DNA of 15,314 nt from NCBI GenBank assembly GCA_002715545.1, contig PAZI01000030.1:1-15314 (forward strand), given 5' to 3'. A model generated the notes under the pieces. That model had not been told where the DNA came from. It was given only the letters and a program-made list of their open reading frames with translations, and made no database searches. The position numbers and the translations under genes are program-made. Origin of the DNA: Methanobacteriota archaeon. GTDB lineage: Archaea > Thermoplasmatota > Poseidoniia > Poseidoniales > SP79. Of this stretch, positions 1-15,314 are shown piece after piece (within the stretch, counting starts at the first letter, position 1; each line of letters starts with the position of its first letter).

Positions 1-72
1 TCCACCGCCGTCTCCACCGCCGTCTCCACCGCCGTCTCCACCGCCGTCTCCACCGCCGTCTCCACCATCCTC
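1..72 (-). repeat. 12-bp tandem repeat encoding (DGGG)n
   Basis: Five perfect copies of the 12-mer tccaccgccgtc fill 1-60, and a diverged sixth copy (9 of 12 matching) fills 61-72. In the minus-strand frame each unit reads GAC GGC GGT GGA, giving EDGG followed by (DGGG)5. The array continues past the window edge, so total copy number is unknown. The unit is a multiple of three, so copy changes would alter linker length without breaking the frame. Confidence 0.97.
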
Positions 73-3000
73 TGGTTCCGGCGGAGCTGCACTCAAACGG
101 ACATGGATCATGGCATAATCCGCCGACTCCGGTATGTCTGAACTGGTGAGAGTGAACTCCACTTCAGGCAGGTTCTGTTCGTCGTTCTCCGGAATAACCG
201 CACGAGCATGAACTTGATCACCAACGCTGTAACCTTCGCCAGGCAGCACTTTGAGGACGATATCCTCCGCAACCTCGTTGACCGGATCATCAATAGCCTG
301 CACTTCGATGTTTACAGAACTGGTTCCCTTTGGCATGCGCACTCGGTTAGCAATGCTGACATAGTCAGACTGGTTGTTTGCCGTGCCACTAATAGAAATG
401 TTGACTTCAATTTCTTGGCTGGTGTCGTTCCGTCTCAACGTCATCTGTGTCGCGCTACCTCCCTCGGGAACTTCCGACTCGCCGCTCAAAGTTAGTTCAA
501 CGATTGGCATTGAGTCTTTAATCAAGATTGAAGCGCTGTTCTTTGGATGACTATTATATAAAGTACTATCAGAAATGTGCACCACTACATACTCATTCCC
601 TTCGGGATCTGAATCCTCCTTGGCATCAACACGAATAACCGCTGATATGTCGCCAGCCGGAATAACCACTGAACCACTCAGCGGCTCATAGTCCAGCCCC
701 TTGGTCGCTGAACCGGAAACCAAATAGTTTACCATCAAATCTTTGGAATGATCACCCGTGCGAAAAACTAGGAGACGAGCCCGATTGTCCCCAGGATTAT
801 CTTCCTCCTCCATCGCCACAGCATCCACTGCAGCAATGCTGATGACAGGGAGTTCGTTGTCGATGATGAGAATCTCCGCCTCGATAGGTGCTGCCATCTG
901 AAATGTCTCGCCAGGTGAGACGGAGAGAATGATGTTCTCGATTCCCTCAATATACTGGTCTTCATTTGGGCGGATTACAATTAAGCCCTTGGCCTGCCCG
1001 GCCTCGAAGGTGAACAGATCCGGAATCTCAGCATAGTCGAGGTTATTTTCTGCAGTGCCAGAAATAAGATAAGGAATCTCAAGCACCTCGCTGATATCGC
1101 CAACGCGAGACACCTCAACAATGGCCACATCTCGGCCGTTCTCACTGGCCAAACTATCGAGAAGTGTGACATTGACCATCGGCAAAACGGAAGGATCGTT
1201 ATCTTCAATATCCAGCATCAATTTCCCCGAACGGCCGGGTATCCAGTCGTAGGTGGACTGGTAATAATTGGTTTGCATATTGATCGAACCAGCAAACCAC
1301 CCCGGGGGGGTAATTTTCCCCATGCCTGTGATGATTCCAGGATTGACTCGGAGCATGATTTGCTCGGTGCCTTCAAAAACATCATCCTCCTCAACTGCCA
1401 ACTCGATCTGAACCTGATTAAGACCTACCGGAAAATAAAACTTCCCATCAGCAATGTTGGTCTGGGCATATCCATCCAGCGTATAGTCCGCCTCATACTC
1501 CGCAGCACCTTGAATCATGAAACTCACTTCAAGTGGTTCCACCAAGCTACCTGTACGCGTTACCGTAAGGAATGTCGGCAGAGTTGCCCCCTCTGTAACC
1601 GTGCTCACAGATGAAAGGATATCGATCTTGGGAATTTCCGCTGCAAGAAACAATAATTCGTTGGCATCCATATCGTTAACCTCGAGTGGATTTTCAAAAC
1701 CAACCGGAGTAGCATTATAGCCAAACAAATTAGCGTTAAGTGCATAAGACTTATCACGTTCCACACCGACCAGCACGAAGTTGCCTTCTGCATCCGTGAA
1801 GGCACGCAAGATCGGCCCAACCAGATCGGCTTCAGGATCACCGGGCACCGCCTCCTGAGCGGCTACCTCGACATTTTCCAACGGTATTCCAATATCCGAA
1901 ATGACTTTCCCGGTAACTCGAAGTGTCCCCGGGCTACCGACCGTTACAACCACATATCGGCTTGCGTGGCCACCTTTCATGTCGGTGACTTCGCAGCGCA
2001 CCAAGTATTCTCCTTCAAGAAGAAAAGCATGGCTGACCTCTGGCTCGTTGTAAGCATAGTTGCCATCCCCAAAGTCCCAGTAAATAGACAAAGCGTCATC
2101 ATTAGGATCAAATGCTCCAGCCATGAATGTGATTTCATCTTCCTCATCCACCACCGTAGTTGAAGCGGCCATCTCAACAACCGGTGATTTGTTATCCTTG
2201 AACGCACCAATATTGACCACTACATCGATCCAAGGCACCTCCTCGCCTTCCTCGCTCTGTGCCACTGGCGTCACATGCAGACCAATGCTCTGCTCAACAA
2301 ACGTCCGCCCAATCATGAGTGGCGAATCAAGAACGCCACCCGCACTGCCGGGTGAAGCATCAAGCAATTTGGAAAGAGAGCCCGAATCCTTCATTAACAA
2401 TTGAAGCCCATTGCGACTCCAATGATCGAGAAGAGGTGAAACTTCTTTTTCCTCTCCCATCATGTCGATAAACGTGTCACCGCCGGGCGACCATTGATTC
2501 CGCTGGTTAGATACCCGGTATTGAAGCCAGTAGGTCCGATCTTCATCTCGAGTGATGCGCAGTGCATGAATACCATCCTCAGTCAACCTCGGGACGTCGT
2601 AAGCATACAGCCTCAAGGACATGCTGGAATCCAACTCCGCAACAGAAGACTCCGGCAGCCATCCGAGACTATGTTTTGCAGGCGCATTAAACTGGCGATT
2701 ACCACCACCCATAATACTCCATAGATCCCCGTCATAAACCCATGTCCCTGGTCCATAAACACTGTCACGACCAAGTAGATCGGAGAGAGAATGAGGGATC
2801 GGAGGATCAGGAGACATTGGATCTGGTGGTACTTTTTCTGGTGCAACCGTGTCCCAGTAGTCCGCCGACTGACTAGAGCCAAACAGCCCGGAAGCCAAAT
2901 TTCTAATAATCGCCTCAACGTGGTATCCCTTTATGAACATCCCACCAGCAAATCCAGAAACGATCCAGTCATCATAGACCGGTCCTGTAAGATCACTAAC

Positions 3001-4299
3001 AGCAATCAAAATCCAATCATAAATGGCCGGATCATAGCCCTTGACTTCGGCTAGTTCTATGGCCGAATCCTTTATCAAACCCTGCCCATTCTGCTCATAC
3101 CACAACTTGCTGCTAGGAAGGGTAAGCGTCGGTGTAATGCTGGGGGTAAATGAGAGTGTCCCGTAGGATGATTCCACGAAAAAGTCGTTAACCTCCTTCA
3201 TTGTTTGCTCAAGCAACGCCGCACTTGGCGGCTCGGCAAGATCATCAGCAAAGTTGAGACGAATAATCAGCACATCCTTGTCGCCTTGGGCCGCAACAGC
3301 GTCCCAAGCCGAAAGGTGCGACTCATCACCTGGGCTGGGGCTGGCACCCGCCTCTGCGCCAAGCAGTTTGAAGCCAAGCTTGCGGGCATGTTCGCCACGC
3401 GACAGGACATAGGTATTCCCACCCGCCGAGGCAAGCACTCCACCTCTGGCCAAGCTGGCGGCCTCCCCGGTAACTGGATCGACGCCTTCTACTGATTGAC
3501 CCGCCGCAACTGCGGTAGTCGTTGAAGTTTCACCCATCAGACGTACAGGCGACTCGTCAAGCGCGGCGTGACCATCAAGCGCAATCCCGTTAACAGGAAG
3601 GTTCGCGTACGAACCTAAACCGGAAAGACGACCATAAGTATGAGCTGTGTAAGTTTCACCATTGTGTGTCAAGGTGACTATCGAAGTGTGATCCAGACCA
3701 GAAAATCCTGAACCTTGCGAAACGTGCTTGGCCAAACGGGGATCCAAGCCATAAAACTTATCCAAGTTGGAAGCAAACGGATTACGCCCATTGGCTGAGC
3801 GGTAGTACTCGTTTACATTAAAATTTCCGGTTCCATGAATTGTTTGCTCTAACTCGGAACGAATGGACTCCGGTAAAGCCTCACGGGTATCATCGTCGAC
3901 ACGCTGAGCCATGGTATGCGCCGGGTTATCCCGGATCAGACGAGCCATTTCAGTGCGGCGAACCTTCGCCAAGCGCAGCCCCTCCTCAACTCCTGCAGTC
4001 CCATCCATGAACTCCTTGGCCCATCTTTGGAACGATCCAATTGGATCAGATACAGTTCTTTCGTCGCTCTGACTGCCCCCCCTGTTTTCCACAGCCTTAA
4101 TGGATCTCAAGCCATTCTTAGGATTATTCAACCCTTTCTGTTCTACGGAAACCGAATCAATTGTCTTCTTAATTTGAGCTGAGGAAAAACCTTTCGCACC
4201 CTTTTCAAAAAGCGATAAATTATTTCGTGTGCTTGCAATTTTGAGGCCTAACAGCACAACCAATGCTGTGATAAAAGCGCTATAAAAAAAATTTTTCAT
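1..4299 (-). CDS. Secreted metalloprotease-like protein with a lost zinc site, PKD and Calx-beta domains (3' end outside window)
   Basis: The frame runs from ATG 4299 to the left edge without a stop (1433 codons). The start is secure: an in-frame TAG lies at 4303-4305, two codons upstream, and the ATG opens a hydrophobic export segment (residues 4-22). The Shine-Dalgarno sequence is poor; AGGGA abuts the start. Residues about 105-165 (RRTEMARLIRDNPAH...) and 225-255 resemble the pro-region of secreted metalloproteases of this phylum. Residues 342-555 form an M6/M11-like metzincin fold (VLIIRLNFADD, SSYGTLSF, SIMGGGNRQFNA, LGWLPE). Residues 556-700 continue that family's pattern (YWLQYR, LLDASPGS, IGRTFVEQSIGLHVTP). 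Then come PKD 704-788, a CarboxypepD-regulatory-like domain 791-885, and Calx-beta domains from 890 onward. There is one cysteine (C769). The catalytic HExxH is absent, so enzymatic activity is doubtful. Partner or substrate unknown; export is inferred. Confidence 0.92.
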   Translation of the reverse strand, partial: MKNFFYSAFITALVVLLGLKIASTRNNLSLFEKGAKGFSSAQIKKTIDSVSVEQKGLNNPKNGLRSIKAVENRGGSQSDERTVSDPIGSFQRWAKEFMDGTAGVEEGLRLAKVRRTEMARLIRDNPAHTMAQRVDDDTREALPESIRSELEQTIHGTGNFNVNEYYRSANGRNPFASNLDKFYGLDPRLAKHVSQGSGFSGLDHTSIVTLTHNGETYTAHTYGRLSGLGSYANLPVNGIALDGHAALDESPVRLMGETSTTTAVAAGQSVEGVDPVTGEAASLARGGVLASAGGNTYVLSRGEHARKLGFKLLGAEAGASPSPGDESHLSAWDAVAAQGDKDVLIIRLNFADDLAEPPSAALLEQTMKEVNDFFVESSYGTLSFTPSITPTLTLPSSKLWYEQNGQGLIKDSAIELAEVKGYDPAIYDWILIAVSDLTGPVYDDWIVSGFAGGMFIKGYHVEAIIRNLASGLFGSSQSADYWDTVAPEKVPPDPMSPDPPIPHSLSDLLGRDSVYGPGTWVYDGDLWSIMGGGNRQFNAPAKHSLGWLPESSVAELDSSMSLRLYAYDVPRLTEDGIHALRITRDEDRTYWLQYRVSNQRNQWSPGGDTFIDMMGEEKEVSPLLDHWSRNGLQLLMKDSGSLSKLLDASPGSAGGVLDSPLMIGRTFVEQSIGLHVTPVAQSEEGEEVPWIDVVVNIGAFKDNKSPVVEMAASTTVVDEEDEITFMAGAFDPNDDALSIYWDFGDGNYAYNEPEVSHAFLLEGEYLVRCEVTDMKGGHASRYVVVTVGSPGTLRVTGKVISDIGIPLENVEVAAQEAVPGDPEADLVGPILRAFTDAEGNFVLVGVERDKSYALNANLFGYNATPVGFENPLEVNDMDANELLFLAAEIPKIDILSSVSTVTEGATLPTFLTVTRTGSLVEPLEVSFMIQGAAEYEADYTLDGYAQTNIADGKFYFPVGLNQVQIELAVEEDDVFEGTEQIMLRVNPGIITGMGKITPPGWFAGSINMQTNYYQSTYDWIPGRSGKLMLDIEDNDPSVLPMVNVTLLDSLASENGRDVAIVEVSRVGDISEVLEIPYLISGTAENNLDYAEIPDLFTFEAGQAKGLIVIRPNEDQYIEGIENIILSVSPGETFQMAAPIEAEILIIDNELPVISIAAVDAVAMEEEDNPGDNRARLLVFRTGDHSKDLMVNYLVSGSATKGLDYEPLSGSVVIPAGDISAVIRVDAKEDSDPEGNEYVVVHISDSTLYNSHPKNSASILIKDSMPIVELTLSGESEVPEGGSATQMTLRRNDTSQEIEVNISISGTANNQSDYVSIANRVRMPKGTSSVNIEVQAIDDPVNEVAEDIVLKVLPGEGYSVGDQVHARAVIPENDEQNLPEVEFTLTSSDIPESADYAMIHVRLSAAPPEPEDGGDGGGDGGGDGGGDGGGDGGG
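73..1632 (-). repeat. Calx-beta domain array of the metalloprotease-like protein (four complete, fifth begun)
   Basis: Residues 890-1409. Domain 1 spans about 890-1034 (VTEGATLPTFLTVTRTGS ... VFEGTEQIMLRV ... LDIEDND). Domain 2 spans 1040-1150 (LEIPYLISGTAENNLDY ... EGIENIILSVSPG ... ILIIDNE). Domain 3 spans 1152-1265 (VNYLVSGSATKGLDYEPL ... NEYVVVHISD). Domain 4 spans 1266-1375 (VNISISGTANNQSDY ... EVAEDIVLKVLPG ... AVIPENDE). A fifth begins at about 1378 (PEVEFTLTSSDIPESADYAM) but is interrupted after two strands by the Gly/Asp linker. The 'GTA..xxDY' and 'E..E.i.L.v' signatures identify the family. Calcium binding is a known property of the fold and is not tested here. Confidence 0.82.
1645..1929 (-). 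other. Carboxypeptidase-regulatory-like beta-sandwich domain
   Basis: Residues 791-885 show the pattern GTLRVTGKVISDIGIPLENVEV ... RAFTDAEGNFVLVGV ... SYALNANLFGYNATP, typical of the CarboxypepD_reg/transthyretin-like fold (V.G.V.d..g.pl..v.V ... T...G.f.l..v ... y.l.a...gy). It probably acts as a structural spacer between the PKD domain and the Calx-beta array. Confidence 0.75.
1936..2190 (-). other. PKD domain
   Basis: Residues 704-788 begin KSPVVEMAAS and contain the hallmark YWDFGDG (W741-G746), followed by VSHAFLLEGEYLVRCEVTD and YVVVTV. This is the canonical PKD/Ig-like fold, an extracellular spacer or binding module that commonly follows the catalytic domain in secreted proteases. It holds the only cysteine of the visible protein (C769). 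Confidence 0.9.
2635..3276 (-). other. Metzincin-like (M6/M11-type) protease domain with degenerate active site
   Basis: Residues 342-555. The opening strand DVLIIRLNFADD, the segment VNDFFVESSYGTLSFTPSIT, the YDPAIYDWILIAVSDL strand and the Met-turn region SIMGGGNRQFNAPAKHSLGWL (Met 530) all match my recollection of secreted M6/M11-like peptidases. Where these carry HELGHNxGLxHAxxW, this protein has I464-I-R-N-L-A-S-G-L-F-G-S-S-Q-S-A-D-Y-W482 (nt 2854-2910). There is no histidine between H460 and about residue 504, and no Glu at the catalytic place. The other two reading frames here do not encode HExxH either, so a simple frameshift does not explain it. The fold assignment is from pattern memory; the missing motif is read directly. 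Confidence 0.72.
4231..4299 (-). other. N-terminal export signal or membrane anchor of the metalloprotease-like protein
   Basis: Residues 1-23 have a short basic start (MKN) followed by a hydrophobic run, FFYSAFITALVVLLGL, then KIAST. This is a Sec-type signal or uncleaved anchor. A possible cleavage lies after A22, but Lys at position -3 is unfavourable, so an uncleaved anchor is a real alternative. The segment supports the chosen start codon. Confidence 0.75.
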
Positions 4300-4414
4300 T
4301 CCCTATTGATCTACAATTGGGCTTAAACGGATCAAAATGACTATCGTTCAAATTCGAGCCCTAGTTACATTGATGCTTGATTTAACTAAAAGACCACTGT
4401 TTCCCAATACCTTC
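4300..4414. other. Intergenic gap between the two large genes
   Basis: These 115 bases lie between the stop of the giant gene and the ATG of the metalloprotease-like gene, both transcribed leftward. I see no stem followed by a T-run that would make an intrinsic terminator, and only poor matches to a sigma-70 promoter on the minus strand. An ATTGGG/CCCAAT pair occurs about 85 bases apart, too far to be meaningful. Read-through from the giant gene is plausible but unproven. Confidence 0.6.
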
Positions 4415-7400
4415 TTATTGCTCACTCATGATCGCCCTGAAGTACTGGGACTTAAATCTCATTACATCAATATCAAATTCAACTGAACCCTTTGAGTCTG
4501 ATTTCTCGTCAGCCAACTTGGACCAGTTCACCAAATCTAAACTGGATTGAATTTGATAGCGTCTAAATGATTCACCTAAGATAAGCACCTGACCATTCTC
4601 AATATCATAGTTAATAAACAACTCAGGTGGCAGTGGGCTTGTTAAAGCCTCAACAACGCCCAGGGCAGTATATGGTGAATCCTTCTGCTCCTCAAAAGCA
4701 CCACCAAACGCAAACAGCTTCCCAGGAACCTCACTTGTGGTATAAATTGTTCCATTCAAGTTAAGCTGATTGTAGCGGTCCGATACCAGAGCCCCCTCAG
4801 GTGAAAGGAGAACAATTCTGTTTGCCGATTGCCCACTCCATTTTGTGAAACCACCTGAAACTACCATTTTTTTGTCGGCACGCAGGACTATGTCTCTAAC
4901 CACGTTATTGAAGCCCGTCCCAACATTGAATGTCTCGTCGATCGACCCATCTCTGTTAAGGGCGGCAATCCTTCGGCTAGATATACCGTTTACTGTCACA
5001 AACGCGCCACCAATCAATACCGAGTCATCCCTAGCTAAAACTGAATAAACCGGTGCATCAGGATATGCAGATAAATCGAAAGAATGATCAACAGCACCAT
5101 CATGAGTGATTCTGGCAATATTCTTAAGCCCATCATTTGCCCCCCCTTGAAAATCACCTGCCAAATAAACTCCCTCATCGGTAACATCTAAGGAATAAAC
5201 CGCGCCATTGATCGCATCAGGCTTAAAGCTTTCATCCAACCCTCCATCAAGCAACAGCTTCGCAACACCAAAAGCACCGCCCACAAAAAGGTGACTCCCC
5301 CATTTTTGGATGTCATAGACTGTCGAATTTAGCTTGTTAGATGCCTTAAATGAAGAATCCAGATGACCGGCAAAATCAAATTTAGCTAAATGATTTACAG
5401 GCGTATCTCCTGAAAAATTGAAAAGACCGCCCGCAAATATACCATTGTAACCATACTCAATCGCGTACACCGCATTATTCAGCCCAAAATCTTCCGAGAG
5501 AAATCCAGAAACAACCCCGTTATCCTGAAAATATGACAACCGACCTGTTTGTACTCCATTTATCTCGGTGTAATCTCCCCCAACAAGGAAACCATTATTG
5601 TCTGACTGAATGCTATAAACCGGTCCATTCGCACCCTTTCCGCTGATAGCTGAAATAAAGTCTTCCGACTCATCATCGACAATAATCACATTGGCAAAAT
5701 TCGGGGGAGTGATCTTTGCATCACCGGTAGCTTTGATTAAGCGCACCTTGAATGCCTCGGCTCCTTCATCAATTTTGTCATCCAAGATAGGAATGTCCAT
5801 ATATTGAACAAAATCACCATCTGAAAATACAATCTTGCCGCTTTCCGTTGAATAATCCTTACCCAAAACTGCAGTTAAATCGCTCAATTCATATTCAATC
5901 TCGACAATACCCGTAAACCCATTGGTCCTGACAACCCCGAGTGTTGCGAAATTAGCATTCTCCATGGCCTTGAAGGTGGGATATTCAAATGAGAATTCAC
6001 CAGTGGCAAAATCGTTATCTATGATATTCAATTTCGACTCGTCAGATTGAATGAACGCATTCCCGACCAAATTTGTTATCAGTAAAACAACACTCTCTAT
6101 GGGCTCTATCTTATCATCATCCAAAATCGGGACAGTTACGAATTTGCTCGTTTCAAAGTCAGCAAAATGTACCTTGTTACTTACTGTGATAAAATCAGCG
6201 CTGGCTTGAGCGGTGCCGTTTGTGGCTGTCAAAAAGGACATCTCTAATTCGCCAAGCAATGAACCAATTCTCTGAATTTCTATTCTTGCCAAGGAACCAT
6301 CCTGACCTTCGGTAATCGAATACAATGGCTGGCCAAAACCAATGGAACTATCATTGCTTGTAATGATCAGCTCTGCCTTTGACTGAAGGCCCTCAGTATT
6401 TTCTTGAAAATCGTCGAGTTGAAGCTCCACAACCTCATCTGGTTCAATTTCGATGTCATCCAGAATTTCTATAGTTAAATTTTGAATGGCCTCCCCCTCT
6501 GGAAAATCGACGCGCGTTAATAGAGGTTGATAATCTAAACCACTAATCGCGCTGTTAATAGCATCTCCTTCAACGGTCGAGAAGTTAGCCGAAATTTCTC
6601 CGATCAAGCCTCCCGTTCTTACTACCCGAACCGTGGCATTAGTCCCCTTTTCATTGACGGCATACTCGGGAAAATCAAACTGCAATCTTCCAGGCGTGCG
6701 AATGATACCGCCATGTACCTGTACAATATGTTCCTTCGGCTCCGAATTGAACATTGTAAATCCGCCACCCAAGATCATCTTATAATCGGTTCGAAGGGCA
6801 ATGGCCAATACCGAACCATTTGCACCAGTACCAAAATTTATGGTTGGATCAACTGAACCATCGGTATTTAAGCGCACAATCGCATTCTTGTTGAGTCCAT
6901 TGAAGATACTAAAATCACCGCCCAAAAGAATTTTCCCATCAGGCTGCAAAACCACCTCGTAAATACCGGCATTGGCCCCAGATCCAATATCGAAACCCTC
7001 ATCAAGAGACCCATCAATCTTTACCCGGGTAACCCGATTAATGCTTTGATCTTGGTAACTGGTAAATAAACCAGCTGCAATTATGCTTAAATCAGGTTGG
7101 GCAACAACTTTCTTAACGGATCCATCAAAACCTTCACCAACAACAAAGTCCTCGATCAATTTTCCACTCGAATCAAGAAGCGCTATACCTTCGCGGGGCT
7201 TTAAATCAAAAAGATTAAAATCCCCACCTACAACTAATTGTCCATTCGCCAAAATATCAACCGAATTGACAGTAAAATCCGGCCCGATGCCTGGATCAAA
7301 GCTCTTATCCAAATCACCATTTGGAAAGAGCCTAGCTACCCGGACCATATTTAAACCATTATAAGTTGTAAAATCCCCCACAATGATGATCCGTCCATCA

Positions 7401-13400: not shown

Positions 13401-15314
13401 CTTCCATTTATCTGGGTAAAATCACCCACCAAAACCAATTTTCCATCTGGTTGCAGCTCGGCATCAAGAACCTGCCCATTCATGAATTGAGAACCGGAAC
13501 TTTCATTCGAGTTATAAGCTAGATAATCTTTCGCCCCTGCTTTTCCATCTGCTATTGCTACCGCTGCTTTAAGCTCCTTCAATTTTTCGACTGCTCCCTT
13601 GAGCTCAATATCAGCATTGGCTGCAACTGCAGAGGCGTTGGCTTCATTACTTAAAGCATTATCAAGCCCAACCTTAAGCAAATCAAACTCACTGGCCGCA
13701 CTTTCCGCAACGGTCTTGGCCTCCGCTGCCGCTGCGATATCCTCTGGAGTAGCACCCTCAGCCAATGCCTTGGCATCCGCCAACGCCAAAGCTTGATTCG
13801 CCTGATCCAGAGCAACCCTACCTGCTTCCAATTTCTCGTTGGCAACACCTACGGCATCCAACGCTTCATCAAACTTCAAATTTGCCGAATCTAGCTCTGC
13901 CTGAAGTATTGCCAATTGACCTTCAGCGACCTGCATGGCTTCCCTTGCCTCATCAGCAGCCAATACATCCTCAACAGAGGCTCCGGTTATCAGCTCGCCT
14001 GTAGGACTAATTTTGATGATATTCTTATAAGAACGCCCATTTCCGGTATTGATAGTAAAATCGCCCACAAGAATTAGATTTCCATCGGGATGCAATAACA
14101 CTTCTGTAACATGCCCGTCATTGAATTTCTCCTTCTGATAAATGGAAGAGAAATTATCTGTAAACAGTTGGTTAACTTTTCCATCGGTATCAATCCTCGC
14201 CACTTTCTGTGCGAATTCGTTATTAGCAAATTGCTCAAAATCTCCCCCGATAATCAGCGAACCATCATCCAACTCAGCCGCACTAAAAACAGCTCCTGCA
14301 CTTCCAATCTGCTCACTCCAAGAAGTCACATCCTGTGCATCAGAACCCAAGACAACAAGACCTCTCCTGGCTTTGCCCTTGTAACTCTGAAATTCCCCAG
14401 CAACGAGAAGTCCTCCACCAGCTAGAGGTACAATAGAATGGGCAACACCATCGAAACCAGAACCAGGATCAAACGAATCATTCAAATAACCATCACTATT
14501 TATTTTAGCAATTCGGTTTCTGACTGTCCCTCCCACTTCGGTAAAATCACCCACAACTATTATTGAACCATCTAACATTGGGAAAATATCCTTTATGAGA
14601 CCATTGGTTCCGCCCTCCACATTAAACTCACTATCTAATTCCCCCTTGTCACTAAGCTTGGCAATTCCCTTTCGGAGTATCCCATTAATCACTGTAAATT
14701 CACCCGAGAGCAACAGATTGTTATCAACGTCTCGTTTAATCACCTCAATCGGACCGTTCACCTTGATTCCAATTCCGGTATCAAAAAATGTATCTATACT
14801 TCCAGCTGGAACATTTACAGTTTCATCATCAACTATGTTGATCTTGGCCTGTGAAGGGGAACCGATAACCGCTCCCAAGGTTGGGTTACTAAGTGTAAGA
14901 TTGAAAAACTCAGTATTTTCAGTAGCAAAATCATCCAGAATTTTAACGGTTAAAGATTGTCCGTTTTGCCCATCCTCAAAATAGAGTGTCCCGCTTGAAA
15001 TAACATAGTCAGGAAAATCGCCTACGGAAGAAGCAGTTCCGTCACTCAGCGAATAATCAACCTGTATATTTCCCTTTGCGCCGCCCAACCTCTCAACATA
15101 AACCGTCAACTGAGCACCGTTCTCATTCAAATAGTAATTAGACTCGCCAAGGACAACCTCTCCCGCATCGTCATCGTCTTCTACTGAAACGATTATCTCG
15201 CTCCTTTCGCCAAGTATTACATTCGTAGGATTGGCCAAGACAACCTTAAATGACTCCAACCCCTCCACATCATTATTATCAATAATTGGAATTCGTATCT
15301 GCTTTTCCTCAACA
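4415..15314 (-). CDS. Giant surface protein with Calx-beta domains and four delta-60 propellers (5' end outside window)
   Basis: One uninterrupted frame gives 3632 visible residues and ends in TAA at 4415-4417. It is still open at the right edge: the first visible codons encode VEEKQIRIPIIDNNDVEG, the tail of a Calx-beta domain. The GTG at 15268 is therefore internal, and the true start and any signal peptide lie outside. Domain order: two Calx-beta (first cut), propeller 1, about five Calx-beta-like, propeller 2, four Calx-beta, propeller 3, three Calx-beta, propeller 4, C-terminal domain. Calx-beta units are recognised by endings such as IVDDE, IIDND or IVDDD and by 'E..E.F.l.L' strands; acidic loops in this family bind calcium. 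Propeller repeats read 'DGkiiiGGDFt.fNg...nRIArLn.DGslD.sF..G'. I see only three cysteines, which fits an exported protein. Known family members are surface or secreted proteins; adhesion or scaffolding is inferred. No catalytic domain is recognised. The gene ends 115 bases before the next same-strand gene. Confidence 0.93.
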   Translation of the reverse strand, partial: VEEKQIRIPIIDNNDVEGLESFKVVLANPTNVILGERSEIIVSVEDDDDAGEVVLGESNYYLNENGAQLTVYVERLGGAKGNIQVDYSLSDGTASSVGDFPDYVISSGTLYFEDGQNGQSLTVKILDDFATENTEFFNLTLSNPTLGAVIGSPSQAKINIVDDETVNVPAGSIDTFFDTGIGIKVNGPIEVIKRDVDNNLLLSGEFTVINGILRKGIAKLSDKGELDSEFNVEGGTNGLIKDIFPMLDGSIIVVGDFTEVGGTVRNRIAKINSDGYLNDSFDPGSGFDGVAHSIVPLAGGGLLVAGEFQSYKGKARRGLVVLGSDAQDVTSWSEQIGSAGAVFSAAELDDGSLIIGGDFEQFANNEFAQKVARIDTDGKVNQLFTDNFSSIYQKEKFNDGHVTEVLLHPDGNLILVGDFTINTGNGRSYKNIIKISPTGELITGASVEDVLAADEAREAMQVAEGQLAILQAELDSANLKFDEALDAVGVANEKLEAGRVALDQANQALALADAKALAEGATPEDIAAAAEAKTVAESAASEFDLLKVGLDNALSNEANASAVAANADIELKGAVEKLKELKAAVAIADGKAGAKDYLAYNSNESSGSQFMNGQVLDAELQPDGKLVLVGDFTQINGRSRNRIARLTVDGVLDPTINFELGADNVIRTLAIQDDYRIIIGGDFSSYNNLVSPYLAKVYGGINYGGGLVSFVSPKVLFAENENGLKITLKRQLGLTTNGRCRLRIQTNSATKWIPGGNPYLVYDYVGFSSQEESDFMSIEFGVGEVFKDIRIISISDISEIDDLEKLSRSADGDDLIIYIIDDLFADEPDELLTMVLDDFEELGAGPQSIADLIIENNDSAIRFDRVYETGLKFDYMVDESNQEKVANFSLFRTGATNRVVRVDYYTEPGTARSEPPGQDYEDVFGTISFNAGEIQKTVSIPIIDDFKHEGVESILVHLKDAKPEGSALLLGSKSVELLIDDSDKDLARTRIAFEYNRYHLDETEKQLELKVRRIGGLEDSTSVKYRTIDLNAVSEGDSPDYESMEGELLFKPGEDEKTVTLKIIDDFDQESTERFGIELYESKGAKLGDQSEAVISILDREAGTVMFTRWNELDDDGLISGTNRRDNKYYVTESEGFYLNRWYSGNSIAVDEENPQDGLIMGDDPGIRVTITRMEGSHGRIKMDYATQDGLGRAGEHYISQSGTLVMEEGQTYAYIVIPILPFGVWTNFDFNEFESSITTFNEAPFTLNLFNIRKDEGEPDYIKPQFKNENWQPSGEITATIIVERQPFYNTYQTNVTDYDETDYDGYHFLRKYHRVRESQGEALVYVSSGLSDCDAYWMALPRRTLDWAVGTHDWSGNNETGAGPPFPDGPGPAENMVNPGFIQTPYMTSFDRDLVAGSDYAKPWYWKWNGVIWPTNETPESANIDPFPDGDFVPLGGTLSAGLSIIRIPLINNDEIDFNQDFFVYLYPKDLCAEIGRWPLDYPQVAQVTIVADGDLKSKNITVDDDGVKKVSIINDPKRGETAAGAYDRNFNPHSQFDTEPPYNFDPGANNQVHAVAAQADGKVLIGGDFTSFNSFPLNRIGRLYVDGSVDRQFETGTGADDTVTSIEVRRDGRILIGGGFRSYNGFVSYGLAELNNDGSINTEFDVGAGFNGTVRNIRVMEDDKLLIGGDFTSYNNTNAVYMARLHSDGKIDHLFAPKKVPNGAVNALDYDEDGSVVAVGEFNMVGDLTRNFIVKYKSDGRVDPDFESVEGANGIIHDVIVQPDGKIIIAGDFTRINFVERNRIARLNPNGTVDRSFNPGEGFDSTVYTILLDTDTSRRVYDADGNPGGGAPIKNPDYMKIYAGGLFHEFDEVRRYGLARLKPNGMLDTSFMDNSFNQFAGIPRSAAQDPRSFIQGMSLTGDKDLYISGSFKQVGGGYNNFQKSPQNNVTRIVGNRYGHYPVGGGFFVDSGLTRGPGSIGFESEFYGADEFIKSHFIKLKREGGNLGAASVMAGMINPSDLSGAASENVDYDKDIQEIIYPTLWPSSSFTSMYKGGWQVSDAFSGVNNLGHKQDDVMERLPDGSLATKFTGSRYFTDLNEWFVHINDDALIEGNERIELSLYRPKSRLTLGGANMASGFALGRRTAYLTAIDDDFNHGTIRMVQSEYFTDEGRRQVRVDLERVAGSNGQVSVQLHARDLTDQEVNNLKFSKANGSSILSDYLPRVIDVTFEPEEDFKSVPITINNDTVKEGDEAFIVELDRPKGGAVIDGPFSNSSALVIIVDDDYEAGVLSLTSDHFTINEGAGVYEMPVRRVGGTQGRVQLDYIIQLVSDGDDPVAKSMKGTLVWANQDSENKSILFEVPDDELVQPDKTFELTLQNPQGTEQKQPRLGVKSADLLILDDDKFGELAFASPDYFVTENGGEFVVSVLRREGLAESVTVDYEVVEGSAKAGQDFVPVSGTLHFEPGQPSATFNVAILNGTELKDQNETVILKLTDPKPLHDFKRRTLLGTPNVAVLNIIDDELNNVPPGTGDTSFNQGAATDDFVDTVVIQDDGKFIIGGEFTNVNGLNRSRIARLNQDGQIDGSYNLGNGFDGPVRVVKIDDDGKALVAGYFNNFNGVSRNGIARLNADGVLDETFNPGGGPDNPVTDLALYPDGRIIIVGDFTTYNGLNMVRVARLFPNGDLDKSFDPGIGPDFTVNSVDILANGQLVVGGDFNLFDLKPREGIALLDSSGKLIEDFVVGEGFDGSVKKVVAQPDLSIIAAGLFTSYQDQSINRVTRVKIDGSLDEGFDIGSGANAGIYEVVLQPDGKILLGGDFSIFNGLNKNAIVRLNTDGSVDPTINFGTGANGSVLAIALRTDYKMILGGGFTMFNSEPKEHIVQVHGGIIRTPGRLQFDFPEYAVNEKGTNATVRVVRTGGLIGEISANFSTVEGDAINSAISGLDYQPLLTRVDFPEGEAIQNLTIEILDDIEIEPDEVVELQLDDFQENTEGLQSKAELIITSNDSSIGFGQPLYSITEGQDGSLARIEIQRIGSLLGELEMSFLTATNGTAQASADFITVSNKVHFADFETSKFVTVPILDDDKIEPIESVVLLITNLVGNAFIQSDESKLNIIDNDFATGEFSFEYPTFKAMENANFATLGVVRTNGFTGIVEIEYELSDLTAVLGKDYSTESGKIVFSDGDFVQYMDIPILDDKIDEGAEAFKVRLIKATGDAKITPPNFANVIIVDDESEDFISAISGKGANGPVYSIQSDNNGFLVGGDYTEINGVQTGRLSYFQDNGVVSGFLSEDFGLNNAVYAIEYGYNGIFAGGLFNFSGDTPVNHLAKFDFAGHLDSSFKASNKLNSTVYDIQKWGSHLFVGGAFGVAKLLLDGGLDESFKPDAINGAVYSLDVTDEGVYLAGDFQGGANDGLKNIARITHDGAVDHSFDLSAYPDAPVYSVLARDDSVLIGGAFVTVNGISSRRIAALNRDGSIDETFNVGTGFNNVVRDIVLRADKKMVVSGGFTKWSGQSANRIVLLSPEGALVSDRYNQLNLNGTIYTTSEVPGKLFAFGGAFEEQKDSPYTALGVVEALTSPLPPELFINYDIENGQVLILGESFRRYQIQSSLDLVNWSKLADEKSDSKGSVEFDIDVMRFKSQYFRAIMSEQ
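4418..4645 (-). other. C-terminal domain of the giant protein
   Basis: The last 76 residues, after SPLPPEL, contain QVLILGESFRRYQIQSS, LDLVNWSKLADE and a final SQYFRAIMSEQ. This matches the small beta-rich C-terminal unit ('y.lqSStDLvnWt ... ffR') that I recall at the ends of many secreted Verrucomicrobiota proteins. It may be a surface-anchoring or export-related terminus; that role is inferred. Confidence 0.6.
4645..5655 (-). repeat. Propeller 4: seven degenerate delta-60-like repeats
   Basis: Cores: GGDYTEINGVQTGRLSYF, AGGLFNFSGDTPVNHLAKF, GGAFGVAKLL (shortened), AGDFQGGANDGLKNIARI, GGAFVTVNGISSRRIAAL, SGGFTKWSGQSANRIVLL, FGGAFEEQKDSPYTALGVV. The 'DG' turn before each core is often replaced, and repeat 3 lacks most of the loop between the GGAF strand and the next strand. 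It is still seven units, so a full propeller is expected. Confidence 0.78.
5656..6706 (-). repeat. Three Calx-beta domains between propellers 3 and 4
   Basis: Unit one (about 6348-6706) has YAVNEKGTNATVRVVRTGG, EILDDIEIEPDEVVELQLDD and ELIITSNDSS. Unit two (about 6000-6347) has YSITEGQDGSLARIEIQRIG, VPILDDDKIEPIESVVLLIT and NIIDNDFATG. Unit three (about 5656-5999) has IEYELSDLTAVLGKDYSTES, IPILDDKIDEGAEAFKVRLI and IIVDDES. Spacing is regular and the acidic closing loops are intact. Confidence 0.85.
6707..7788 (-). repeat. Propeller 3: seven delta-60 repeats
   Basis: This is the most regular copy. Cores: GGEFTNVNGLNRSRIARL, AGYFNNFNGVSRNGIARL, VGDFTTYNGLNMVRVARL, GGDFNLFDLKPREGIALL, AGLFTSYQDQSINRVTRV, GGDFSIFNGLNKNAIVRL, GGGFTMFNSEPKEHIVQV. 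It opens VPPGTGDTSFNQGA, parallel to propeller 1's VPAGSIDTFFDTGI, and closes VHGG, parallel to VYGG. Confidence 0.9.
7790..9489 (-). repeat. Four Calx-beta domains between propellers 2 and 3
   Basis: Unit one (about 8893-9489) is enlarged, with IGFESEFYGADEFIKSHFIK, HINDDALIEGNERIELSLYR and a closing TAIDDDFNHG. Unit two (about 8500-8892) has EYFTDEGRRQVRVDLERVAG, ITINNDTVKEGDEAFIVELD and IIVDDDYEAG. Unit three (about 8148-8499) has DHFTINEGAGVYEMPVRRVG and closes LLILDDDKFG. Unit four (about 7790-8147) has DYFVTENGGEFVVSVLRREG, VDYEVVEGSAKAGQDFVPV and NIIDDELNN. The last three are textbook Calx-beta spacing. Confidence 0.84.
9490..10738 (-). repeat. Propeller 2: seven delta-60 repeats
   Basis: Repeat cores in order: GGDFTSFNSFPLNRIGRL, GGGFRSYNGFVSYGLAEL, GGDFTSYNNTNAVYMARL, VGEFNMVGDLTRNFIVKY, AGDFTRINFVERNRIARL, AGGLFHEFDEVRRYGLARL, SGSFKQVGGGYNNFQKSP. 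Repeat 6 carries an inserted loop (DADGNPGGGAPIKNPDYMK), and repeat 7 has an extended loop before NNVTRIV. It opens with two strand-like copies of 'F(D/N)P' (DRNFNPHSQFDTEPPYNFDP) instead of the usual one. Confidence 0.85.
10740..12007 (-). repeat. Two divergent Calx-beta-like domains with long aromatic-rich insertions
   Basis: The first (about 11440-12007) keeps ITRMEGSHGRIKMDYATQDG, HYISQSGTLVMEEGQTYAYI and a final TATIIVERQ, but has added N-terminal and internal loops. The second (about 10750-11370) keeps YHRVRESQGEALVYVSSG, FVPLGGTLSAGLSIIRIPLI and NDEIDFNQDFFVYLYP. Between them lies a loop rich in Trp, Tyr, Pro and Gly (about 11010-11330: DCDAYWMALPRRTLDWAVG, KPWYWKWNGVIWP). Two of the three visible cysteines lie in the second domain. 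The domain assignment is weaker here than elsewhere. Confidence 0.6.
12008..13214 (-). repeat. Three Calx-beta domains between propellers 1 and 2 (first part)
   Basis: Unit one (about 12740-13214) starts VSFVSPKVLFAENENG and ends ADLIIENNDS. It carries an extended middle and one of the three visible cysteines (GRCRLR). Unit two (about 12358-12739) includes VRVDYYTEPGTARSEPPGQD, VSIPIIDDFKHEGVESILV and ends ELLIDDSD. Unit three (about 12008-12357) includes YRTIDLNAVSEGDSPDYESM, VTLKIIDDFDQESTERFGIE and ends ISILDREAG. All keep the 'IIDDF..E..E' strand typical of the family. Confidence 0.8.
13215..14815 (-). repeat. Propeller 1: seven delta-60 repeats, interrupted by a helical insert
   Basis: Seven repeat cores occur in order: SGEFTVINGILRKGIAKL, VGDFTEVGGTVRNRIAKI, AGEFQSYKGKARRGLVVL, GGDFEQFANNEFAQKVARI, VGDFTINTGNGRSYKNIIKI, then after the insert VGDFTQINGRSRNRIARL and GGDFSSYNNLVSPYLAKV. 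It opens with VPAGSIDTFFDTGIG, which would supply the first outer strand, and closes with VYGG. Seven repeats are what one closed seven-bladed propeller would need. Confidence 0.85.
13520..13981 (-). other. 154-residue alpha-helical (coiled-coil-like) insert inside propeller 1
   Basis: The stretch from ASVEDVLAADEAREAMQVAE to AIADGKAGAKDYL is rich in Ala, Glu, Leu, Lys and Asp. It lacks the Gly/Val/Phe pattern of the surrounding beta repeats and has almost no helix breakers except EGATPEDI (about 13742-13759), which falls at its exact middle. This suggests two helices of about 75 residues folded as an antiparallel hairpin. It sits where the loop 'DxxFxxGxG' between blades 5 and 6 would be expected. 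No direct repeats flank it that I can see. Confidence 0.82.
14822..15314 (-). repeat. Calx-beta domains at the right edge (first incomplete)
   Basis: The first unit is cut by the window. It shows IRIPIIDNNDVEGLESFKVVL and ends VSVEDDDD. The second (about 14822-15170) is complete: VVLGESNYYLNENGAQLTVY, VERLGGAKGNIQVDY, SDGTASSVGDFPDYVISSGT, LTVKILDDFATENTEFFNLT and a closing KINIVDDE. Acidic closing loops fit calcium binding. They lead directly into propeller 1. Confidence 0.85.

Follow-up and report, generated by a model that had tools for sequence, protein, structure and literature searches.

The window analysed here is a whole stretch of 15,314 nucleotides (contig PAZI01000030.1 of assembly GCA_002715545.1, deposited as Methanobacteriota archaeon), which carries two large genes in tandem on its minus strand, 115 bases apart (Table 1). 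A scan of positions 4200 to 4500, around the gap between them, returned no promoter-like and no terminator-like site. The downstream gene encodes a giant protein with a domain related to the M6/InhA-type metzincin peptidases, in which the zinc-binding and catalytic motif has been replaced. A first-pass annotation had proposed that this domain is a pseudoprotease with a preserved fold. The comparisons described below support that proposal: the motif is lost in every member of its clade that covers the site, the domain is constrained and the fold is kept by prediction.

The family signatures flanking the site, reported as intact, are all present in one open reading frame (ORF) of the minus strand (Table 1). 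The replaced motif lies in the same uninterrupted frame, which bears out the absence of frame damage. The stretch singled out earlier, 2854-2910, corresponds to residues 464-482 (IIRNLASGLFGSSQSADYW), and the three zinc histidines and the catalytic glutamate are missing from it in both registers that had been suggested. Alignments and models favour the register in which HELGH lies opposite R466-N-L-A-S470, followed by a 2-residue insertion that places the third histidine opposite S478. By eye, however, the second register also fits a giant relative (L015/L041) without a gap, so that the register is uncertain, but neither register supplies any of the four ligands; from its sequence, the domain would lack the three-histidine zinc ligation of metzincins. 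In the models, the counterpart of the active-site helix has 13 residues here (461-473) against 11 in the HELGH-bearing relative L042. A six-frame search of the window returned a single HExxH, on the plus strand near base 206 and outside the domain, and none in any frame of the domain itself. A compensated frameshift concealing HExxH was rejected after each strand had been read in its three frames near the motif, and a motif search likewise rejected an HExxH located elsewhere in the ORF.

An initial protein search identified 22 relatives, five of them at 67-82% identity and without HExxH (0/5), and 17 at 26-30% identity, all carrying it (17/17). A second search with the alignment of the clade gave 34 matches. 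Clade membership was assigned by identity (>55%, the next sequence being at 31%) before the motif was counted. Residues 466, 467 and 470 are covered by 28 of the 34 clade rows, and the site by 44 of the 47 rows of outer relatives. HExxH, the mark of M6/InhA peptidases, was present in none of the covering clade rows (0/28) and in every covering outer row (44/44), which have the third histidine as well. This split indicates that the loss of the motif is not due to chance and that it is shared by the orthologues, although the clade rows are partly non-independent and some may come from one organism. Loci L005-L008 and L012-L017 were left out as duplicates, P0049-P0051 were outside the scored rows, and L044-L047, L049 and L058, read separately from these counts, carry HExxH in 6/6 cases.

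Genome scans located the gene in five genomes, namely four Verrucomicrobiota metagenome-assembled genomes (MAGs) and G010. These were the same five among 58 and among 98 genomes of relatives, and their loci showed 70-85% domain identity to the window. In a sample of the class, 2/384 genomes have the gene and 8/384 give a match at 1e-30, so that the gene is a rare one. The clade occurs mainly in Verrucomicrobiota; two of its rows have the source names marine metagenome (P0001) and Woeseia sp. (P0025), and from the habitats behind the MAG names, its bacteria are presumably mostly marine. A pattern search of viral contigs gave 41 stretches, none of them related to the domain. A separate family of ∼1000-residue HExGH proteins recurs in related genomes (L010, L009, L049 and others), with a PKD domain matched in L010, the one that was scanned.

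Structure prediction of the domain gave an InhA-type fold, in agreement with the metzincin assignment, and the fold is therefore retained by prediction. The Met-turn methionine (M530) is found in 25/25 clade rows and in 45/45 outer rows having a letter there. The NCBIfam model TIGR03296 scored 21.8 bits in the window and 36.4 bits in L042, the window thus not reaching the curated cut-off of 110.8. A sequence search of the PDB with the domain alone returned one row (E 0.019), and in a profile search whose alignment included longer proteins the best rows were PKD domains. InhA is a member of M6. The M6-type peptidase InhA2 (immune inhibitor A2 zymogen, PDB 4yu5/4yu6), 17% identical to the domain, keeps the His-x-x-x-His helix (HAFGHDLGL in the solved chain), whereas the clade domain lacks the ligands and has added loops. 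In the second insert of the clade, where outer rows have no letters, E616 and D625 are each conserved in 20/20 rows.

A tree of 62 rows was computed with residues 455-505 masked, after dropping 18 short rows and the near-copy P0017. The clade (19 rows) formed one side of a branch with 100/100 support, in 100% of 200 bootstrap trees and with a stem length of 1.31; as the tree was midpoint-rooted, reading this group as a clade assumes a root outside it. The closest outer relatives by score are L058, L041, L042 and L043 (best 8.7e-55). Constraining L041-L043 to group with the clade gave a log-likelihood 0.02 higher (P of the approximately unbiased test, p-AU, 0.503), so the tree does not settle the sister group. 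Because this grouping costs nothing, the insert that follows the motif may have arisen before the zinc site was lost.

To the question of whether the domain is constrained, the ratio of nonsynonymous to synonymous rates (dN/dS, omega) gave a rough answer. Within the clade, 11/15 pairs were saturated at synonymous sites and the other four gave omega values of 0.077-0.129, compared with 0.117-0.233 in 15/15 pairs of the ∼1000-residue HExGH siblings and 0.131-0.311 in 3/3 pairs of the giant HELGH relatives; comparison among the sets is rough owing to the simple counting method and their unequal divergence. Clade dN was 0.087-0.250, and that of the domain was lower than that of the Calx-beta part in 8/10 pairs and higher in 2/10. 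Mean entropy was 1.34 bits in the erased stretch (468-478), 0.63 in the insert (485-520) and 0.60 in the domain, and the Met-turn loop was nearly fixed. This difference (1.34 vs 0.60 bits) led us to reject the view that a new conserved motif stands in place of the old one. The pattern of omega, dN and entropy suggests that the domain is needed, that the letters of the old helix are not, and that the insert is not specially conserved. Roughly, then, purifying selection has maintained the domain as its empty zinc helix drifted, and the combination that defines a pseudopeptidase, a kept fold with a motif lost across constrained orthologues, is found here.

Table 1. Features of the window (residues are those of the pseudopeptidase ORF)
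Feature	Position	Strand	Remarks
Two large genes in tandem	15268-4415, then ORF from 4299	-	
DUF5122/Calx-beta protein, 3617 aa	4415..15268	-	directly upstream of the pseudopeptidase gene
Pseudopeptidase ORF	1..4299	-	1433 aa visible; open at window edge, 3′ part missing
N-terminal hydrophobic segment	4231..4290	-	putative signal peptide or membrane anchor, by eye from sequence
Prodomain-like region	3310..4032	-	∼residues 90-330; from alignment with outer relatives, borders approximate
Place of prodomain Cys pair	3388..3486	-	DPVTG ... VLSRGEH; CPVSG or CxxC, then FCxxxH, in outer relatives
M6/InhA-like metzincin-fold domain	2200..3276	-	residues 342-700
VLIIRLNFADD	3273-3241	-	signature
SSYGTLSF	3171-3148	-	signature
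Helix in place of active-site helix	2881..2919	-	residues 461-473; DSSP on model; HELGH counterpart
Replaced zinc motif	2866..2904	-	R466-N-L-A-S-G-L-F-G-S-S-Q-S478; HExxHxxGxxH in outer relatives
Insert after motif	2749..2847	-	residues 485-517; similar insert in nearest HELGH relatives
Met-turn loop	2686..2721	-	WSIMGGGNRQFN; nearly invariant in clade
SIMGGG	2718-2701	-	signature
QFNA	2694-2683	-	signature
YWLQYR	2532-2515	-	signature
Second insert	2425..2493	-	∼residues 603-625; no counterpart in outer rows
LLDASPGS	2367-2344	-	signature
IGRTF	2313-2299	-	signature
PKD domain	1942..2193	-	residues 703-786; Pfam PF18911, 1.3e-14
CarboxypepD_reg-like domain	1708..1917	-	below Pfam cut-off
Calx-beta repeat	514..789	-	top-scoring of four; PF03160, 5.8e-27
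12-bp tandem repeat	1..66	-	encodes Gly-Gly-Asp-Gly; window ends at it

The prodomain-like region also departs from that of the outer relatives. Its cysteine pair is absent from the clade at either place (0/16 covering rows), as against 24/27 covering outer rows at the first place and 22/27 at the second. As a guess from the sequence, the pair could be a latency device or a metal site. Among clade members, L001, L002, L040, P0004, P0005, P0029 and P0030 lack most of the prodomain. This state requires five changes on the domain tree (16 rows scored by hand; P0024, P0026 and P0027 unscored), which suggests either that the prodomain was lost repeatedly or that 5′ ends were swapped between genes.

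The part of the gene beyond the window can be glimpsed in the relative L002, whose ORF stays open for 2578 codons, up to the contig end, and continues with TSP3 repeats, a PQQ-like propeller, further Calx-beta repeats and DUF5122. The contigs of the window, L004 and L040 end in Gly-Asp-rich coding repeats, and L001 shifts frame there, near 14100; these ends and frame changes may be either assembly faults or real length variation. At the other end of the gene, a homologue of the DUF5122/Calx-beta neighbour lies directly upstream in the 5/5 clade loci inspected (L001-L004, L040), at 33-42% identity to the copy in the window. Since repeats of the neighbour resemble the tails of L041-L043 as well, with 28-31% identity, position weighs more than score in this homology, and the conserved place despite low identity suggests that the two giants may work together. 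Between the DUF5122-like parts of the 3617-residue neighbour we also noticed, by eye, an alanine-rich, coiled-coil-like stretch of ∼140 residues (VLAADEAREAMQ..., 13543-13966, minus strand).

The erasure of the zinc site from an otherwise conserved domain suggests that the domain probably survives as a binding part. We consider it probable that the gene encodes a giant exported or anchored protein whose dead M6/InhA-type head has been kept to bind without cutting; from its sequence, the clade domain is presumably devoid of catalysis, and it may bind through the rim of the old cleft. The starting point can be pictured from the HELGH giants L041, L042, L043 and L058, which resemble the clade in having an M6-like domain and, behind HANxW[DNE]T, a comparable insert; they are 29-34% identical to it over a 501-residue query. 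The two that were scanned (L042, L043) also have PKD, CarboxypepD_reg, Calx-beta and DUF5122 after the domain. They differ in that HELGH is intact in 4/4, the first prodomain cysteine is present in 4/4 and both cysteines in 3/4 (not L042). By this comparison, the clade probably descends from an active peptidase that had a prodomain and was fused to PKD, Calx-beta and propeller modules. On the stem branch, the three zinc histidines, the catalytic glutamate and the prodomain cysteine pair would have been lost and the loops remodelled, the motif loss being one change on the tree if the root lies outside the clade. Thereafter the domain would have stayed under purifying selection with a drifting zinc helix. 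Today the cleft rim, with its nearly invariant Met-turn loop, may hold a ligand, either protein or glycan, that it leaves uncut, and the long tail may form a calcium-stiffened stalk.

Several observations weigh against such a binding head. Over the 22 codons that surround the former motif, omega was 0.055-0.671 in the 6/15 unsaturated pairs, and one clade row of 28 (P0033) has a lone histidine at 466. The insert after the motif is only averagely conserved (0.63 vs 0.60 bits) and poorly modelled (block means of the model confidence score pLDDT, 39-65), so that it lends weak support to a binding face. The cysteine pair is also missing in some HELGH relatives, and its loss is thus not strictly tied to that of the site. 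Finally, P0041 and P0032, both from a 30202-base contig, resemble halves of one frameshifted clade copy, the former leaving the frame just past the old motif and the latter starting at the Met-turn, and L001 shifts frame further down, outside the domain.

Other explanations for the dead domain have to be considered. It could regulate an active sibling by pairing with, inhibiting or presenting substrate to the separate ∼1000-residue HExGH relative of the same cells, for which the prozyme case (PMC5201418) would be the model. Such a sibling, with HELGH or HEIGH, lies on another contig in 3/5 clade-bearing genomes (G002, G003, G010). However, the only match in G001 and in G004 at E 1e-3 was the pseudopeptidase itself, MAGs being possibly incomplete, and the sibling type occurs without a clade match in G006, G009, G011, G012 and G016; its domain is just ∼26-33% identical and its gene not adjacent, all of which makes this role unlikely. 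It seems equally improbable that the domain has gained another catalytic or metal site at a different place in the fold and is a repurposed rather than a dead enzyme. The low omega would fit, as would a set of residues that hardly vary in the clade and are not those of the outer rows (E462 28/28, D480 26/27, D507 24/24, H578 24/24, R511 24/24), but H578 is the only histidine of the domain conserved at 95% or more (H503, 23/25), the spaced acid/Cys/His pairs in 455-484 (EAIC, DYWD, HVEAIC, ETKSAD) vary among rows, and neither Pfam nor NCBIfam assigns the domain to another enzyme family.

The domain might instead be a passive spacer, kept because misfolding is costly in a giant exported protein whose tail alone does the work. 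The variable helix, the average conservation of the insert and the dispensability of most of the prodomain would all be expected of a spacer. We nevertheless regard it as a rather poor candidate, since domain dN falls below Calx-beta dN in most pairs, though not in two, and since the domain has stayed at 70-85% identity next to a neighbour at 33-42%. That the gene is a lone decaying or mis-sequenced copy is barely credible and was rejected: the window contig does end in a repeat and the P0041/P0032 copy looks frameshifted, but no stop interrupts the domain match in 5/5 genome loci, omega is low and the motif is absent throughout the covering clade rows.

Metzincins that have lost their activity are already known, and the clade is best filed as an M6-related pseudopeptidase and not as an M6 peptidase. 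ADAM11/22/23 and other ADAM pseudopeptidases are animal proteins of another family, the M12 metzincins, and in several of the tabulated members the motif is partly retained. According to a 2024 review of inactive metallopeptidases (PMC11266112), the dead domain of ADAM22 is a receptor that binds LGI1 by its surface, which makes it the closest worked precedent that we found for a binding head, by analogy. The outline of that review covers mainly animal families; its text has no instance of 'immune inhibitor', and two instances each of words beginning with 'bacteri' and 'prokaryot'. CLCA zincins are likewise reported to have substituted catalytic sites in some members (PMC3650047), but belong to another family. 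No M6 pseudopeptidase was named among the matches listed in the open-licence literature. More tentatively, the binding head preferred here could be a bacterial counterpart of ADAM22: an M6-type metzincin whose zinc site disappeared entirely on a single branch, which could then dispense with its prodomain (repeatedly or through 5′-end swapping) and came to serve a giant exported, calcium-dependent protein as its dedicated receptor head, the GGGNRQFN Met-turn loop lying at the new binding face. The loss of the motif is complete, fixed in every covering clade member and mapped to one branch, and HELGH relatives share the type of domain order. The clade thus offers a natural experiment on what becomes of a protease fold after cutting ends: the prodomain is no longer required, the helix of the erased site drifts and the Met-turn loop remains constant.
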